From: Nitrosopumilus sp. b3
Lineage (GTDB): Archaea > Thermoproteota > Nitrososphaeria > Nitrososphaerales > Nitrosopumilaceae
DNA length: 64,000 bases
Direction of reading: 5' to 3'
Assembly (NCBI RefSeq): GCF_014078525.1
Contig: NZ_MU078696.1
Span: 239,873-303,872, forward strand
Shown here: piece after piece, positions 2,568 through 30,581 of the stretch
Layout of the letters: each line of letters starts with the position of its first letter
Position numbering within the stretch: the first letter of the stretch is position 1
Translations under genes and position numbers: made by a program
Notes under the pieces: model-generated
Told to the model about the DNA's origin: nothing
What the model saw: the letters and a program-made list of their open reading frames with translations, nothing else
Database searches by the model: none

Positions 2568-3191
2568 TTACTCGATTTCCTCTTCGGTAATCTTTGTTTC
2601 AAAATCATCAATTTCATATTTCATTGATTCATCTTCTTTGAGCTCTCCTCTTTCAATTAGTACCTGACGTACAAGTAACCAGTAAACTGTGGCAAGAGCT
2701 TTTCTTCCTCTATTATTTGCAGGAATTATTACGTCCAGATTAGATGTAATGTTATCCGTATTTGCAATTCCTATGATTGGAATTCCTGCATTGGTTGCTT
2801 CAATGATAGCTTGCTCATCAACTTGAGGATCTGAAATTAACACTAATTTTGGCTCAATGTAATATGGTAATGAGGGATTTGTCAATGTTCCTGGCATAAA
2901 TCTTCCAAGGAGCTTCTTTGAATTTAACATCTCACAGAATTTTTCAATTGGCGTTTCTGCATATTGTCTGCCTGAACATACTATGAGATTATCTGCTCCT
3001 AATCTATTGATGAATTTGGCTGCAGTTTTGATTTTCTCTAATGTGATGTCTAAATCAAGCATGTAAAGTCCTTCAGGACTGGCTTTGGTGATAAATGGTC
3101 TCATGAATTTTGTCTTTACTTGAGTTCCTACCCTGATTCCAGTAGCTAGGATCTTCTTCTTAATGTCAGTTGTTTCTGCTTGTTGGCTCAT
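2568..3191 (-). CDS. rps2: 30S ribosomal protein uS2
   Basis: Archaeal uS2, 207 aa, a structural protein of the small subunit. The protein has the family core GIRVGTQVKTKFMRPFI and the segments GLYMLDLDITLEKIKTAAKF, VCSGRQYAETPIEKFCE and IGIANTDN. The C-terminus ends in an acidic tail. It follows eno by 7 bp and precedes mvk. The order rpoN-eno-rps2-mvk is a recurrent archaeal arrangement, which supports a single transcript from the rpoN promoter. Confidence 0.97.
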   Translation of the reverse strand: MSQQAETTDIKKKILATGIRVGTQVKTKFMRPFITKASPEGLYMLDLDITLEKIKTAAKFINRLGADNLIVCSGRQYAETPIEKFCEMLNSKKLLGRFMPGTLTNPSLPYYIEPKLVLISDPQVDEQAIIEATNAGIPIIGIANTDNITSNLDVIIPANNRGRKALATVYWLLVRQVLIERGELKEDESMKYEIDDFETKITEEEIE

Positions 3192-3198
3192 GACGATT

Positions 3199-4437
3199 TT
3201 AAATCTCTACCATACCGCGTATTAAATCATGCTCTGAGAGGCGTAATAATTCATTTAATTTTGCCACTCTTTCTCCACCTACTACCCCTACTTTGAGCAT
3301 TTTTGACTTTGTAGCAAGACCGATGTGGGAAATTTGTGAGTCAGTAGATTCACCCGATCTATGAGATGTGATTAGTTTGATATTATTTTGATTTGCAACA
3401 CTGGCAAATTCAAATGCATCATAAAGGCTACCTGCTTGATTGACTTTTAGGATAGCAGCATTACATGATTTTAAGCCAATTGCTTTTGTTAGAATGTCTT
3501 TGTTAGTTACTGTCAAATCATCACCTGTAACTAATGTGTCTGGGAACTTTGCTGTTAATTCTGCCATGTCTTCAAATGCTTCTTCATGCACTGCATCTTC
3601 TGCATAAATTAATTTGAACTTCTCAATAATACCTGCTGCAAAATCTATCTGTTCTCCTGAAGAATTTTCAAACCCTGCTCTATCATAAACATATTTTCCT
3701 TTTTCTTCATTCCATTGGGTAGATGATGCAAAATCTACTCCTAATGATATTTCTTTTCCTAATGTGAATCCTAAATTTTCACAAGCTTTTGCAGAAACTT
3801 CTAATGCTTTTATATTTTCTAGTTTTGGTGCCCATCCTCCTTCATCTCCTCGTCCATTTGTAAAATGAGGATCTTCTTTTTCTAAAACACTACGTAATTC
3901 TTTATGAACTAACAAATTTGTTTCAATTGCATCTTCAATTGTTTTTGAACCGTTAGCACAAATTAAAATCTCTTGAATATCTGGTGTTCCAGGACCTGCA
4001 TGTGCTCCACCTCCTAAAATATTACCTATTGGAAATGGAAATTTGAATGATGATTCTGATGATAATATCTGAAACAATTCCTGACCAGAGGCTTTTGATG
4101 CTGATTCCATTGATGCAATTGTTACTGCAAAAGCTAATGCTCCACCTATGTTTGCATAATTCGTAGAATCATCCAAACTTTTCAGCGTATTGTGAATTTC
4201 TTTTAGATCTGATGATTCTAACCCAATGAATTTTTTAGCATTTTCTTTTAGAATTTTTAGACTTTCTTCTGGTTTTCCATTAGGAAAACTTACTGCTTCA
4301 TATTTTCCTACACTTGCACCTGAAGGTGCACATACTCTACCTAGAAACTTTCCTTCAGATTCTACGTCAACTTCAATAGTTTTTGTACCTCTACTGTTGT
4401 ATAGAATACGTCCTTCAATTGAGGATATTTTGGCCAA
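3199..4437 (-). CDS. eno: Enolase (phosphopyruvate hydratase)
   Basis: Enolase, 412 aa, interconverting 2-phosphoglycerate and phosphoenolpyruvate; in an autotroph it probably works in gluconeogenesis. Visible landmarks are SRGTKTIEVDV at the N-terminus, the flexible loop around GASVGKYEA, GNILGGGAHAG (where most enolases read GGxHAxN), TGDDLTVTN, and SHRSGESTDSQISHIGLAT with the conserved SHRSGE. The start codon is TTG, one base after the rpoN stop, so initiation probably depends on termination of rpoN translation. It is 7 bp upstream of rps2. Confidence 0.95.
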   Translation of the reverse strand: MAKISSIEGRILYNSRGTKTIEVDVESEGKFLGRVCAPSGASVGKYEAVSFPNGKPEESLKILKENAKKFIGLESSDLKEIHNTLKSLDDSTNYANIGGALAFAVTIASMESASKASGQELFQILSSESSFKFPFPIGNILGGGAHAGPGTPDIQEILICANGSKTIEDAIETNLLVHKELRSVLEKEDPHFTNGRGDEGGWAPKLENIKALEVSAKACENLGFTLGKEISLGVDFASSTQWNEEKGKYVYDRAGFENSSGEQIDFAAGIIEKFKLIYAEDAVHEEAFEDMAELTAKFPDTLVTGDDLTVTNKDILTKAIGLKSCNAAILKVNQAGSLYDAFEFASVANQNNIKLITSHRSGESTDSQISHIGLATKSKMLKVGVVGGERVAKLNELLRLSEHDLIRGMVEI

Positions 4438-4438
4438 G

Positions 4439-4675
4439 TTATTCTAACTCAGATTGAACTTCTTGTTTTCTTCTCTGAATTGCTTCATAAAATGGAATTA
4501 CTTGTTGAATTGTTTCTACAGTTGTCAAAAGCATTCTTCTGCAACAATATCGTTCAATTCCTAAAGAATCCAGAGTTTTCACTGGATCTTCTCCTGCTTT
4601 AATTTTATTTTGATAATCTTCAAACTTGTCTGCAACTAAATTTCCGCAAGTAAAACATCTAACAGGTATTAACAT
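4439..4675 (-). CDS. rpoN: DNA-directed RNA polymerase subunit N (Rpb10)
   Basis: Small zinc-binding RNAP subunit, 78 aa. I start it at the ATG at 4675 (MLIPVRCFTCG), the invariant N-terminus of this family, rather than the longer in-frame start at 4720. The four zinc ligands are seen in CFTCG (about 7-11) and RYCCRRM (about 41-47). It is the first gene of the operon that runs through eno, rps2 and the isoprenoid genes. A TATA-like element lies 26-35 bp upstream, so the mRNA is probably leaderless. Confidence 0.96.
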   Translation of the reverse strand: MLIPVRCFTCGNLVADKFEDYQNKIKAGEDPVKTLDSLGIERYCCRRMLLTTVETIQQVIPFYEAIQRRKQEVQSELE

Positions 4676-4700
4676 ACGAACGAAAAAGTAATCAAGGATT

Positions 4701-4720
4701 ATAAAAACCATGCAAGGCAC
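4701..4720 (-). promoter_or_regulatory. rpoN operon promoter element, shared with rps13
   Basis: Read on the minus strand this is GTGCCTTGCATGGTTTTTAT. The TATA-like GGTTTTTATAAT end lies 26-35 bp before the rpoN ATG, the right distance for a leaderless transcript. The same 20-mer with one mismatch sits at the equivalent place before rps13 (10827-10846). On the plus strand the same bases give TTATAAAAACC about 27 bp before tRNA-Leu, so the element may serve both directions. Confidence 0.65.
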
Positions 4721-4727
4721 TTCCTTT

Positions 4728-4812
4728 GCGGGCGTCGCCCAGCCTGGCCAAAGGCGCTAGCTTGAGGGGCTAGTCTCTCAGGAGTTCGTGGGTTCAAATC
4801 CCATCGCCCGCA
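4728..4812 (+). tRNA. tRNA-Leu (anticodon GAG)
   Basis: Class II tRNA of 85 nt. The acceptor stem GCGGGCG pairs with CGCCCGC (4805-4811), with discriminator A at 4812. The anticodon stem CTAGC/GCTAG encloses the loop TTGAGGG, so the anticodon GAG is at 4764-4766. A long variable arm follows, and the T arm is GTGGG-TTCAAAT-CCCAT. A class II arm, a Leu anticodon and discriminator A agree. CCA is not encoded and no intron is seen. A TATA box lies about 27 bp upstream. Confidence 0.95.
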
Positions 4813-4826
4813 CTAGAATTTTAAAA

Positions 4827-9636: not shown

Positions 9637-10242
9637 TTATTCTGTTGAAGAACTTTCATCTTTTGGTGTTTCTTCAGAAGCAGCCTCTACAGTTTCTTCA
9701 GAAGCAGCCTCTACAGTTTCTTCAGAAGGTTCTTTAGATTTTGTATTCTCTAACATTTCTGGAATCTTTGATTCTGGTGTGAAATGAATACTGTCTTCCT
9801 CAGCAACTGTTACTGTGTATGATGGGATGTCTACCTTTCTTTCTCCAATCATAATGTGTCCGTGAATAACTGCCTGTCTTGCTTGATATGGTGTTTTAAA
9901 TCCAAATTTTTTTGTTACAATGGTTTGTAATCTACGTGAAAGTAAATCATTAGCGTTCAGATTGAGTACATCGTCTAATGTAGCACCACTGCTAACTAAC
10001 CCAATCCTTGCAAGTGATTGCATCAAAATTGGTTCTTTTTCTTCCCTAATCTCTTGTCTTAATGCAAGCAACGATCTTGCTTGATGTCTTACACGTGATA
10101 ATTCTGTATGTGCTTTCCATAGTTCTCTTTTTGTTCTTAATCCAAATGTACCAAGAGTTTTGAGCTCTTCCATTTTTAATTCATAATTAAGTGGTCTTTT
10201 TGGTTTTCTCCAAACTCTACGTGGGTATTTTGGATCTCCCAT
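9637..10242 (-). CDS. rps4: 30S ribosomal protein uS4
   Basis: Archaeal uS4, 201 aa, binds 16S rRNA early in small-subunit assembly. The N-terminus GDPKYPRRVWRKPKRPLNYE and the S4 RNA-binding domain around residues 104-160 (LLSRRLQTIVTKKFGF ... QARQAVIHGHIMIGERKVDIPSY) are clear. The last 40 residues form an acidic tail with an exact repeat SEETVEAA encoded by a 24-bp tandem repeat. It follows rps13 by 9 bp, as in the conserved archaeal rps13-rps4 pair. Confidence 0.97.
   Translation of the reverse strand: MGDPKYPRRVWRKPKRPLNYELKMEELKTLGTFGLRTKRELWKAHTELSRVRHQARSLLALRQEIREEKEPILMQSLARIGLVSSGATLDDVLNLNANDLLSRRLQTIVTKKFGFKTPYQARQAVIHGHIMIGERKVDIPSYTVTVAEEDSIHFTPESKIPEMLENTKSKEPSEETVEAASEETVEAASEETPKDESSSTE
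9669..9728 (-). repeat. 24-bp tandem repeat in the rps4 tail
   Basis: Two exact 24-bp units (9669-9692 and 9693-9716) plus a 12-bp partial third copy encode the acidic tail repeat SEETVEAA of uS4. The reading frame is kept. This looks like a recent in-frame slippage or duplication in a disordered tail. Confidence 0.9.
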
Positions 10243-10251
10243 TCAAAACAC

Positions 10252-10800
10252 CTACTCTTTTTTCTCCGCTGCCGGAACTGCTGCTTCTGCTGCCGGAGCT
10301 GCTGCTTCTGCTGCCGGAGCTCCTGCACTTCCCTTCTTTACTGGTGCTGCCATTCCTCCTTTTGCAACTCCCACAGCTCCACCTTTTCTACCTGATGTTC
10401 TAGTTCTTTGACCTCTTACTTTTAGGCCACTAAGGTGACGATAACCTCTCCAGCTTGCAGTTATTCTTTCTCTTTCAATATCGTTTCTTAATGTAAATGG
10501 AATATCTGATGTAAGTAAATGCAAATCAGCTCCTGTCTCAATGTCTTTTCTTCTATTGAGGAACCATGTTGGGAAATTTCCTCCAATAGGATCTGTGATC
10601 AATTTTTCAATTGCTTGAACATTTTCTTCAGTGAGATTTCCGATGTTAGAATTTGTGTCGATCTTTAATGTGTCTAGAATTGCTGTGGCAAAATTATACC
10701 CAATTCCTTTAATCTGAGTCAACCCTACAAGCATTTTTCGCTCTCCTGGGATATCATTACCCACAATCCTTACAATGTGTCTATATTCTTGAGTACTCAA
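10252..10800 (-). CDS. rps13: 30S ribosomal protein uS13
   Basis: Archaeal uS13, 182 aa. The core has [18 protein letters not shown], the helix-hairpin-helix [17 protein letters not shown] and the C-terminal RNA-contact region [37 protein letters not shown], which I give as landmarks at about residues 105-142. A low-complexity Ala/Pro/Glu tail with 7-residue repeats follows. It is first in a two-gene operon with rps4. A TATA-like element 26 bp upstream of the ATG suggests a leaderless mRNA. Confidence 0.97.
10268..10330 (-). repeat. 21-bp tandem repeat in the rps13 tail
   Basis: Three consecutive 21-bp units (10268-10288, 10289-10309, 10310-10330), differing at a few bases, encode the tail repeat of pattern AAPAAEA. 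The frame is preserved. The neighbouring rps4 tail has a separate tandem repeat. Confidence 0.85.
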
Positions 10801-10826
10801 GTATTCAAAAATTCAAAGAAACCCCG

Positions 10827-10846
10827 ATAAAAACCATGCTAGGCAC
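10827..10846 (-). promoter_or_regulatory. rps13-rps4 promoter element, shared with rpoN
   Basis: On the minus strand this reads GTGCCTAGCATGGTTTTTAT. It differs by one base from the element before rpoN (4701-4720). The distance from its TATA-like end to the ATG is 26 bp here and 25 bp at rpoN. That spacing fits BRE/TATA placement for a leaderless transcript, with a conserved extra block (GTGCCTNGCAT) upstream of it. Confidence 0.65.
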
Positions 10847-10921: not shown

Positions 10922-11074
10922 TTATCTAAAGTCTTCATCCTCTGTCCAATCATTACCCTGAACATTCCATAAATTACATTTACAGCATTTTTTGATTCCT
11001 CGCTGAGCGTCAATATCTATACAAAAACAATGCTCACCTTTGCCTGATGGATCTTGACTACATAACCTCTGCAT
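10922..11074 (-). CDS. Small cysteine-rich protein, unknown function
   Basis: A 50-codon open frame that I read from an ATG at 11074 to a TAA at 10922. The protein is MQRLCSQDPSGKGEHCFC and onward, with CFC (about 16-18) and CCKC (about 30-33), which together could bind a metal ion, then an acidic end WTEDEDFR. No signal peptide or membrane segment is seen. It fills most of the 355-bp space between rps13 and the winged-helix gene and has codon use like its neighbours. I do not recognise the family; it could be a zinc or iron-sulfur microprotein. Confidence 0.5.
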   Translation of the reverse strand: MQRLCSQDPSGKGEHCFCIDIDAQRGIKKCCKCNLWNVQGNDWTEDEDFR

Positions 11075-19016: not shown

Positions 19017-20006
<990 letters not shown>

Positions 20007-27888: not shown

Positions 27889-27990
27889 TTAGTATCTTGG
27901 CATAATGCTAAGTCTTGACTTTGCAGATACTGCAATTATTGAGATAATTGCTACTGCTAGAATCATGGCTGCGATTGTACCAAATTCTGG
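27889..27990 (-). repeat. PEFG 3'-end repeat, copy 1
   Basis: A 102-bp block covering the stop codon and the last 33 or so codons (PEFG motif, membrane helix, basic tail). It differs by one base from copies at 28824-28925 and 29745-29846. Confidence 0.95.
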
Positions 27991-28761
27991 TATCACAAAG
28001 GTACCTATAATTTCAATCTTTTCGGCGCCTGCAAGGAACATGACTGTTACTTTATTTCCATCAATTTCAACATCATCCCATTCTTGTCCATCAACTAGTA
28101 CCATGAAGATACCGTCCTGAACTTTTTTGGTTGGGGTTACTGTTAACGTTCCATCACTTTTAGCGTCGATGTTAATGACAATTGATTTGTCATCAGTATT
28201 GAGAGTTGCACTTTTCACTACTCCACCATTAATGGTAAATGGTATACATTGACCACTTGCAGTAATCTGACCTGGGCCACATTTACTTGGAGTTGTAGGC
28301 TTTGAAGTTGCTTCTCCACCAATTAGTTCAACTTGTGCTTTGCTGCTTTTTTCAACACTGCCATAGTTTACTTTAATGGTGTAAGTACCATCGTATTTCC
28401 ACAATGCACCTGCTGTGTTTAATGTAGTCTCAAAACTCTTGTCATCTGCTACAACTATTTGATTAATTGTAACAATGGAGTTGAGTGGATTCACAACAGT
28501 TACTGTGACTGGATATCCAGATGCTATGTTTGCTACTTGGCCTGTTACCGTAATTATCTCATTATGCATGTACTGCTCTTTATCTGTCCATACAGATATT
28601 GGGAGTGCTTGCATCAATGAATTCTTTGCTGATGCTTTAGCCTCATCCTGAGCACATCCTACACATGCTGGTGGAAGTTCTACCGCATATGCTGATGACA
28701 TAGTTAAGGTACCGACTGCAGTCAAAACGGCTAGTAGCGCGAACGACGTACGACTGTTCAT
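27889..28761 (-). CDS. PEFG-CTERM surface protein 1
   Basis: 290 aa. Signal peptide to about residue 26, then CVGCAQDEAKA, a Cys pair unique among the four paralogues. The domain ISVWTDKEQYMHNEIITVTGQVAN with GALWKYDGTYTIKVNYG follows, then a Thr/Pro linker with CGPGQITASGQC, which resembles the [13 protein letters not shown] linker of the EP-repeat protein. The C-terminus is FVIPEFGTIAAMILA plus a membrane helix and basic tail, a PEFG-CTERM signal probably processed by an archaeosortase. It has its own TATA box at 28786-28805. Confidence 0.8.
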   Translation of the reverse strand: MNSRTSFALLAVLTAVGTLTMSSAYAVELPPACVGCAQDEAKASAKNSLMQALPISVWTDKEQYMHNEIITVTGQVANIASGYPVTVTVVNPLNSIVTINQIVVADDKSFETTLNTAGALWKYDGTYTIKVNYGSVEKSSKAQVELIGGEATSKPTTPSKCGPGQITASGQCIPFTINGGVVKSATLNTDDKSIVINIDAKSDGTLTVTPTKKVQDGIFMVLVDGQEWDDVEIDGNKVTVMFLAGAEKIEIIGTFVIPEFGTIAAMILAVAIISIIAVSAKSRLSIMPRY

Positions 28762-28785
28762 CTTGTTGCGAATTGAACCTGTCTC

Positions 28786-28805
28786 TATTTATGTATATTT
28801 AAAAA
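28786..28805 (-). promoter_or_regulatory. TATA region of PEFG protein 1
   Basis: On the minus strand TTTTTAAATATACATAAATA, 25-44 bp upstream of the ATG at 28761. The identical 20-mer precedes the next PEFG gene (29707-29726), so promoter and 3' end of the preceding gene were duplicated as one block. Confidence 0.6.
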
Positions 28806-28823
28806 GAGAAAAAAGTTGTGAAC

Positions 28824-28925
28824 TTAGTATCTTGGCATAATGCTAAGTCTTGACTTTGCAGATACTGCAATTATTGAGATAATTGCTACTGCTAGAATCA
28901 TGGCTGCAATTGTACCAAATTCTGG
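28824..28925 (-). repeat. PEFG 3'-end repeat, copy 2
   Basis: Identical over 102 bp to copy 3 (29745-29846), and one mismatch to copy 1 (GCA versus GCG). Together with the following 38 bp and the TATA block it forms a roughly 140-bp unit shared with copy 3. Confidence 0.95.
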
Positions 28926-29681
28926 TACTACGACTCCATCTTTGATATCGACTTCAGTTGAAGCGGTATATTTTGGATCGTCAAATTGTTTTGCACTTAC
29001 AGTATAGAATCCATTTTGCTTCCATAGTGGTCCGCCTATGGTTATTTCCTTGGTAAATTCTCCATTAAGCATTGGTGATACTTGAGCAACAGATACTACA
29101 TTTCCATTTGGTGCCGTTATGGTTAAAGTAACATCTTGACTTACTCTGTCTGTTGTACCTTCTATGTTGATTGTTGTAGATCCTATAACAGCATCTGCAT
29201 AAATTTCAATTCCTTTATCTGTTGCAACATTTGGAGTGGTGTAAACTAATCCTGATTCCATATTGGTCTCAGTTACAAGAGTTTTTTTTGCCATTCCGTT
29301 TGCTACTTCAACAAGCACCTTTAGTGTGTACAATGAACTTTGCTGTGGGCTTTGCATTGCCGTTACAGTATAGAATCCATTTTCAGTCCATGTTGGGCCT
29401 ATTTTGAATTCGGTTGTAAATTCTCCATTGACATCTGGTGAAACTTGACCAATTCCTACTACATTATTCCCACTTGGAGATGTTACTCTAAATGTGACAT
29501 CTGTAATTTTTGAAATTGTCTTGCCTGTTACCGTAATCGTGTCTGAGTTTCTGTCAGCCATGGCTGTAAGACTCATTCCTTGACTTTGAGCAAAAGCATC
29601 TTGTTGAATTGAAGTCATTGAAATTAATGACAATGCCATGAGGGCTATCGCCATTGATGTTGTAGAACGTTTAAAATTCAT
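28824..29681 (-). CDS. PEFG-CTERM surface protein 2
   Basis: 285 aa. Signal peptide (about 1-31, ending in QQDAFA). Two tandem beta domains follow: the first with ITVTGKTISKITDVTFRVTSPSGN and GPTWTENGFYTVTAMQ, the second with INIEGTTDRVSQDVTLTITAPNGN and GGPLWKQNGFYTVSAKQ. The C-terminus VVVPEFGTIAAMILA and following helix are identical to those of proteins 1 and 3. It lacks the C-terminal half-domain seen in proteins 1 and 3 and has a duplicated N-terminal domain instead. Confidence 0.8.
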   Translation of the reverse strand: MNFKRSTTSMAIALMALSLISMTSIQQDAFAQSQGMSLTAMADRNSDTITVTGKTISKITDVTFRVTSPSGNNVVGIGQVSPDVNGEFTTEFKIGPTWTENGFYTVTAMQSPQQSSLYTLKVLVEVANGMAKKTLVTETNMESGLVYTTPNVATDKGIEIYADAVIGSTTINIEGTTDRVSQDVTLTITAPNGNVVSVAQVSPMLNGEFTKEITIGGPLWKQNGFYTVSAKQFDDPKYTASTEVDIKDGVVVPEFGTIAAMILAVAIISIIAVSAKSRLSIMPRY

Positions 29682-29706
29682 ACTAATTCAAGTTCAGATA
29701 TCTTGT

Positions 29707-29726
29707 TATTTATGTATATTTAAAAA
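29707..29726 (-). promoter_or_regulatory. TATA region of PEFG protein 2
   Basis: On the minus strand TTTTTAAATATACATAAATA, 25-44 bp upstream of the ATG at 29681; identical to 28786-28805. Each PEFG gene therefore has its own promoter and is not simply part of one operon. Confidence 0.6.
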
Positions 29727-29744
29727 TAGAAAAAAAGATGAAAT

Positions 29745-29846
29745 TTAGTATCTTGGCATAATGCTAAGTCTTGACTTTGCAGATACTGCAATTATTGAGA
29801 TAATTGCTACTGCTAGAATCATGGCTGCAATTGTACCAAATTCTGG
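29745..29846 (-). repeat. PEFG 3'-end repeat, copy 3
   Basis: 102-bp block with stop codon and anchor codons, identical to copy 2. Upstream coding sequence diverges sharply at the PEFG motif (at about 29847), so the similarity is confined to the anchor cassette. Confidence 0.95.
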
Positions 29847-30581
29847 AACTACAAATGTACCGATTATTTCGATCTCTTCAGCTCCTGCTGGGAATGCTAT
29901 GGTAAGAACTCTATTCGTTGCTGATGTTGTTTCCTCAAAGTCTACTTCTTCTCCATCAATTAAGACAAAGAAATCGTCATCTTCACCATTCATTGTTGCA
30001 TCCAACACAGATCTTGGGATTGTCAAGGTTAGTGAACCATCACTTGTTGCATCAATAGATACAATGAGTGAATTTGCTTCGAAATCAGGCATGATACTTA
30101 GTAATTTTCCGCCTGTGATCATGTATCCAATCAAATCTGTAGAACCTTCAATTGCAACTGTTTTGTCAGTTACAGAACCTCCAGTTGTTGGTGGTGTCAT
30201 TGTTGATCCTCCAAATTCAAATGTTGCCTCAGCTGATCGATTTTCAGTTCCATACTGAACTGTTATCGTGTATGATCCTTCTGCTTTCATTAATGCTCCT
30301 CCGGCAGTAATTTCGGTACTGAATTTTTTATCAACACCAACTGTTACTTGAGCAATTGATACCAAGTTTCCATTAGGAGCCTTGACAATTACACTTACTG
30401 GAGTGCCAGAATACAGATCTTTCACTTCGCCTGTTACTAGAATTGTTTCACCTTCTGAATATGATGACTTGTCCGTAGTAACAACAATCGAGTTTTGTAT
30501 TTGTCCAAATGCTGGTGCCATACCAATACTTACAATTAAAATTGCAGATAGGGTAAACACCGTTAGATGAGCTTTCATCAA
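29745..30581 (-). CDS. PEFG-CTERM surface protein 3
   Basis: 278 aa. Signal peptide (about 1-26, ending in PAFG). Domain 1 has IVVTTDKSSYSEGETILVTGEV and GGALMKAEGSYTITVQYG. A Thr/Pro-rich linker follows, then a second beta domain with EANSLIVSIDATSDGSLTLTI and DFFVLIDGEEVDFEE, which resembles the same region of proteins 1 and 27016-27816. The C-terminus FVVPEFGTIAAMILA is the shared anchor. It is divergent from rpoH, with 176 bp between them. Confidence 0.8.
   Translation of the reverse strand: MMKAHLTVFTLSAILIVSIGMAPAFGQIQNSIVVTTDKSSYSEGETILVTGEVKDLYSGTPVSVIVKAPNGNLVSIAQVTVGVDKKFSTEITAGGALMKAEGSYTITVQYGTENRSAEATFEFGGSTMTPPTTGGSVTDKTVAIEGSTDLIGYMITGGKLLSIMPDFEANSLIVSIDATSDGSLTLTIPRSVLDATMNGEDDDFFVLIDGEEVDFEETTSATNRVLTIAFPAGAEEIEIIGTFVVPEFGTIAAMILAVAIISIIAVSAKSRLSIMPRY

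Follow-up and report, generated by a model that had tools for sequence, protein, structure and literature searches.

In archaea, the canonical BRE is enriched in A (PMC7289017). In Sulfolobus, strong BREs carry A at -3 and A or G at -6 relative to the TATA box, and promoters with a weak BRE employ a hexanucleotide located upstream, at -44 to -39 (PMC5817253). Promoter selectivity by multiple TBP and TFB proteins is most prominent in the haloarchaea (PMC7289017).

The promoters of rpoN and rps13 in the window, that is, in the whole 64,000-nucleotide stretch of Nitrosopumilus DNA that was analysed, resemble a canonical leaderless BRE/TATA promoter in their position, in the AT-rich TATA box of 7–8 bp, in the element directly upstream of it and in the start codon about 26 bp downstream. 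They depart from it in that ATGG (GCATGG) replaces the A-rich BRE and in the near letter-for-letter retention of this form across families at two operons. As in the UV-inducible Sulfolobus promoters with the A(N)TTTC hexanucleotide, a short non-palindromic block lies near the core promoter and the BRE is weak by the criterion of A at -3; however, the Sulfolobus block stands upstream of the BRE and concerns 214 genes, whereas the one described here occupies the BRE position of two promoters and is not known to respond to induction (PMC5817253). No A(N)TTTC of the Sulfolobus type was found at -44 to -39 of rps13, where GCCTA is present instead. In Nitrosopumilaceae this GCCTA lies 40–44 bp before the rps13 start codon, near the position of the hexanucleotide; rpoN lacks it, and we regard it as a lead only. 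The likeness to systems with multiple TBPs and TFBs lies in the nine TFB genes of the genome (18 TFIIB cyclin folds), a number that would make TFB-specific BREs possible. The TFB genes are spread over G000:C4:454573-455139 and eight further loci; one of the nine is found near a gar1-srp19-rps8e-like cluster.

Two promoter sites in the source genome

Gene identities in the window were confirmed with Pfam. The genes concerned are the following.

4439..4675, minus strand: rpoN, RNA polymerase subunit N (PF01194, E 4e-28); its ATG is preceded by the TATA box at 25 bp
3199..4437, minus strand: enolase, downstream of rpoN (PF00113/PF03952)
2568..3191, minus strand: rps2, downstream of enolase (PF00318)
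10252..10800, minus strand: rps13, ribosomal protein S13 (PF00416, E 4.3e-39); its TTG start is preceded by the TATA box at 26 bp
9637..10242, minus strand: rps4, downstream of rps13 (PF00163/PF01479)
4728..4813, plus strand: tRNA-Leu(GAG), divergent from rpoN; its TATA box TTATAAAAA at 4699-4707 is the same DNA as the rpoN TATA box

Rfam returned two tRNAs in the window and nothing else. A translin-family protein (PF01997; 4827-5441) adjoins tRNA-Leu and rpoN. Upstream of rps13 and on the same strand lies a 50-aa cysteine-rich ORF (10922-11074) with no Pfam match, the C-terminal region of which is recognisable upstream of rps13 in genomes G021 and G023. Elsewhere in the window, a stretch of about 100 bp recurs in near-identical form at 27954, 28889 and 29810 (region 27954-29900), and a coding repeat of short units occupies 19440-19550.

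The 20-mers GTGCCTTGCATGGTTTTTAT (4701-4720, before rpoN) and GTGCCTAGCATGGTTTTTAT (10827-10846, before rps13), both on the minus strand, have the same orientation and differ by a single mismatch, as the sequence-only reading had described. Its distances to the start codons, 25 bp at rpoN and 26 bp at rps13, are also correct, and so is the ATG of rpoN, but the ATG that it gave for rps13 is not: this gene starts with TTG at 10800 (10798-10800), and its frame is closed by a stop a few codons before that. The TTG is kept in 77 of the 80 Nitrosopumilaceae loci and is also present in f3 and f8 genomes; rps11 in the genus has a TTG start too. TTG is a conserved non-ATG, and putatively leaderless, start of ribosomal genes. 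At both rpoN and rps13 the TATA-like end TTTTTAT stops 25–26 bp before the start codon (a distance counted to the start codon, not to the TSS), in agreement with the promoter position and the leaderless layout predicted earlier. The overlap of the rpoN site with the TATA box of tRNA-Leu on the opposite strand was likewise borne out. The parts of the two promoters are as follows.

4701..4711, minus strand: rpoN core promoter element ATGGTTTTTAT; TATA box TTTTTAT at 4701-4707, ATGG in the BRE position at 4708-4711; kept in relatives
4712..4720, minus strand: GTGCCTTGC, adjoining the rpoN core upstream; the genus largely retains CTTGY, and GTGC is seen in the source genome alone
10827..10837, minus strand: rps13 core promoter element ATGGTTTTTAT; TATA box at 10827-10833, ATGG at 10834-10837
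10838..10844, minus strand: GCCTAGC block adjoining the rps13 core upstream; well conserved among the rps13 loci of Nitrosopumilaceae
10822..10826, minus strand: CGGGG adjoining the rps13 TATA box downstream; near-invariant at rps13 in Nitrosopumilaceae, missing from rpoN

The chance expectation of the two-site 20-mer pattern is 0.02 per window, a value that overstates its significance because the pattern was derived from the same two sites. These two apart, pairs of 20-mers with at most one mismatch in the window are mostly coding repeats or AT-rich words. A scan of the 1.79-Mb genome with up to three mismatches gave no third copy of the 20-mer. Both GCATGGTTTTTAT and the 11-mer ATGGTTTTTAT occur exactly twice in the whole genome, at the rpoN and rps13 promoters, and a search for GTGCCTNGCATG with one mismatch yielded eight matches that are exact only at these promoters. 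In a PWM scan of contig C4 the two promoters scored 22.8 and 22.2; the next 13 matches on this contig are intragenic or thousands of bases off any gene start. A reading frame on the opposite strand through ATAAAAACCATGC was dropped as too short.

Conservation, distribution and scarcity of the element

The rpoN and rps13 promoters of relatives were gathered via their proteins. The stretch shared within the genus is about CTWGYATGGTTTTTAT, and the one shared across families is ATGGTTTTTAT, which consists of the TATA box TTTTTAT and ATGG in the BRE position. Most genomes of the genus have [GA][TC]GCCTAG[CT]ATGGTTTTTATCGGGG at rps13 and mostly CTTG[CT]ATGGTTTTTATAATCCTTG at rpoN. The GTGC at rpoN is private to the source genome, its relatives having mostly TTTTCT or similar; the shared conserved element is therefore limited to the last 11–16 bp, and the extent given in the sequence-only reading is wrong. 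The 11-bp block GTGCCTNGCAT is not supported as a joint site either, although a selected, non-A-rich block beside the TATA box was upheld.

Among the 80 Nitrosopumilaceae rps13 loci, ATGGTTTTTAT is present in 77; TTTTTAT is preceded by GCATGG (53 loci), GTATGG (14), CAATGG (9) or TCATGG (1), is usually followed by CGGGG, and lies 26 bp from the start codon in 73. A 1-bp insertion (GCAATGG) in four genomes leaves ATGGTTTTTAT intact, and G021 deviates with CAGGG/CACGG. An exact scan for GCATGGTTTTTAT over 250 genomes of the order led to 90 examined sites, of which 73 are rps13 and seven rpoN promoters (gene labels were assigned by eye; automatic labels undercount); the sites belong to families f1, f2, f3 and f8, with hardly any elsewhere. 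ATGGTTTTTAT is also found at rps13 in families f2, f3 and f8, and at rpoN in f1, f3 and many f8 genomes (e.g. CAATGGTTTTTATAA); two families other than Nitrosopumilaceae have it, or a one-base variant, at both promoters. At rpoN, part of genus g8 of f8 has ATGATTTTTAT (ATGA), f2 has a different promoter (CATGAAATACTTTTATATCC) while its rps13 retains the motif, and G203 is without the motif.

The survey of other promoters was made mainly on contig C4, which represents 30% of the genome. Nine other promoters of translation or RNA polymerase operons on this contig, whose genes were named by eye (e.g. rpl2, rpoD, L30e/S12, L1, L32e, S24e, S8e and eIF1A), are without ATGGTTTTTAT, as is that of rps11, which has its own conserved promoter AAATCAATGTWTTTTAAACCC with at most weak likeness to the element. 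Given these absences and just two copies of ATGGTTTTTAT in the genome, the idea, suggested from the letters alone, that the element co-regulates translation and transcription genes at large, or serves a wide regulon of such genes, is not supported. The rps11 promoter AAATCAATGTWTTTTAAACCCTTTAAG is itself deeply conserved in the genus (rps11 loci L250-L268). In relatives, GCATGGTTTTTAT or ATGGTTTTTAT also precedes unrelated genes: in three Nitrosopumilus genomes (L424, L431, L434) a DUF1059-like ORF of 63 aa is preceded by ATGGTTTTTATAGGTTYAAT, a conserved promoter, and in f2 the element stands before a cob(I)alamin adenosyltransferase-like gene (both genes were identified by eye). Such presence at unrelated genes is expected of a core-promoter form. 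In generic C4 promoters, which show the leaderless pattern, the TATA box (TTTAAA, TTTATA) ends some 24 bp ahead of the start codon, positions -34 to -32 are A-rich, and the two bases that precede the TATA box have a raised share of G (0.31 and 0.23); the GG of the element thus fits a core-promoter boundary.

A Markov model trained on C4 predicts about 1.65 occurrences of ATGGTTTTTAT on this contig and, scaled, about 5 genome-wide, as compared with the two observed. Over 46 genomes of the genus the word occurs 155 times, with about 88 of these occurrences belonging to the two promoters, whereas the reversed control word occurs 268 times; away from the two promoters this amounts to about 1.5 per genome versus 5.8 for the control. 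Together, these figures suggest, but do not prove, that ATGGTTTTTAT is avoided elsewhere. Words one mismatch away from it are likewise a little scarce (34 versus 46 expected), and codon usage may be the cause of the rarity.

A probable core promoter with a BRE off consensus, and alternative readings

The position, sequence and conservation of the element and its exclusivity in the source genome are established. In our opinion it is probably a leaderless core promoter, composed of the TATA box TTTTTAT and an atypical BRE, ATGG, that has been retained at two operons. We infer that TBP would bind TTTTTAT, that a TFB would read ATGG (which most Nitrosopumilaceae have as GCATGG or GTATGG), and that transcription would start at or beside the start codon, giving a leaderless mRNA; among the papers listed by our literature searches there was no TSS map for Nitrosopumilus or Nitrososphaera. 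Purifying selection would keep this BRE/TATA form at the rps13 and rpoN operons across ammonia-oxidising families. In favour of this interpretation, the position of the element corresponds to that of generic leaderless C4 promoters. Against it, ATGG differs from the A-rich BRE elsewhere on C4 and, counted from TTTTTAT, has T in place of the A that strong Sulfolobus BREs carry at -3, position -6 being G; some genomes deviate (G021, part of genus g8, and G203 at rpoN); and a general TFB alone leaves unexplained why only two promoters of the source genome use it. We call the element a variant since it occupies the BRE position yet is off consensus.

Alternatively, a dedicated regulator or a specialised TFB paralogue may bind CTWGYATGG beside the TATA box, the rps13 and rpoN operons forming a two-operon regulon. 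The exclusivity of the word to both promoters in the source genome, its scarcity elsewhere in the genus relative to the reversed control, the nine TFB genes on hand and the rps13 GCCTA block 40–44 bp before the start codon, near the Sulfolobus hexanucleotide position (-44 to -39; PMC5817253), are all consistent with such a regulon. We nevertheless consider it unlikely: rpoN conserves only ATGG and, less strictly, CTTGY, but not GCCTA; the same form precedes unrelated genes in relatives; the word is neither a palindrome nor an obvious operator; and its scarcity may reflect codon usage, its one-mismatch neighbours being somewhat rare too. It is tempting to speculate that a TFB paralogue of ammonia-oxidising archaea (AOA) reads ATGG as a BRE that is not A-rich and links the making of ribosomes to that of RNA polymerase by co-regulating the rps13 and rpoN operons only, the site being selected against elsewhere, a scenario to which we give slightly less credence still.

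In other lineages rps13 and rpoN belong to one operon; a single strand of G048, for example, has rps13, then rps11, then rpoN inside 4.5 kb, an arrangement known from other archaea. The shared form may therefore hold the separated pieces of the operon at similar expression. The same gene order could imply that the rpoN promoter is a duplicate of the rps13 promoter, produced when the ancestral operon broke up. This origin appears improbable, as the likeness halts at the TATA box, downstream of which rpoN has AATCC and rps13 CGGGG, and as in f2 the rpoN promoter differs while that of rps13 has the motif. Even less probable, if only by a little, is that rpoN owes its conserved site merely to the divergent tRNA-Leu promoter on the same DNA and that the match at rps13 is a coincidence. 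Although the TATA box is common to both strands in Nitrosopumilaceae, the other tRNA promoters on C4 share no ATGG, and in f8, where tRNA-Leu is about 100 bp more distant from rpoN, this gene still has AATGGTTTTTATAA or similar. The f8 genomes thus largely refute this reading, the tRNA overlap not being what explains the element at rpoN.

That two linked operons have retained one core-promoter form so deeply is a genuine, if modest, finding. AOA have many TFB genes, yet their promoter recognition is little understood. With its atypical BRE, its near letter-for-letter retention across families and its restriction to two operons in the source genome, this core promoter is a compact case in which to ask whether different BREs are read by different TFB paralogues.
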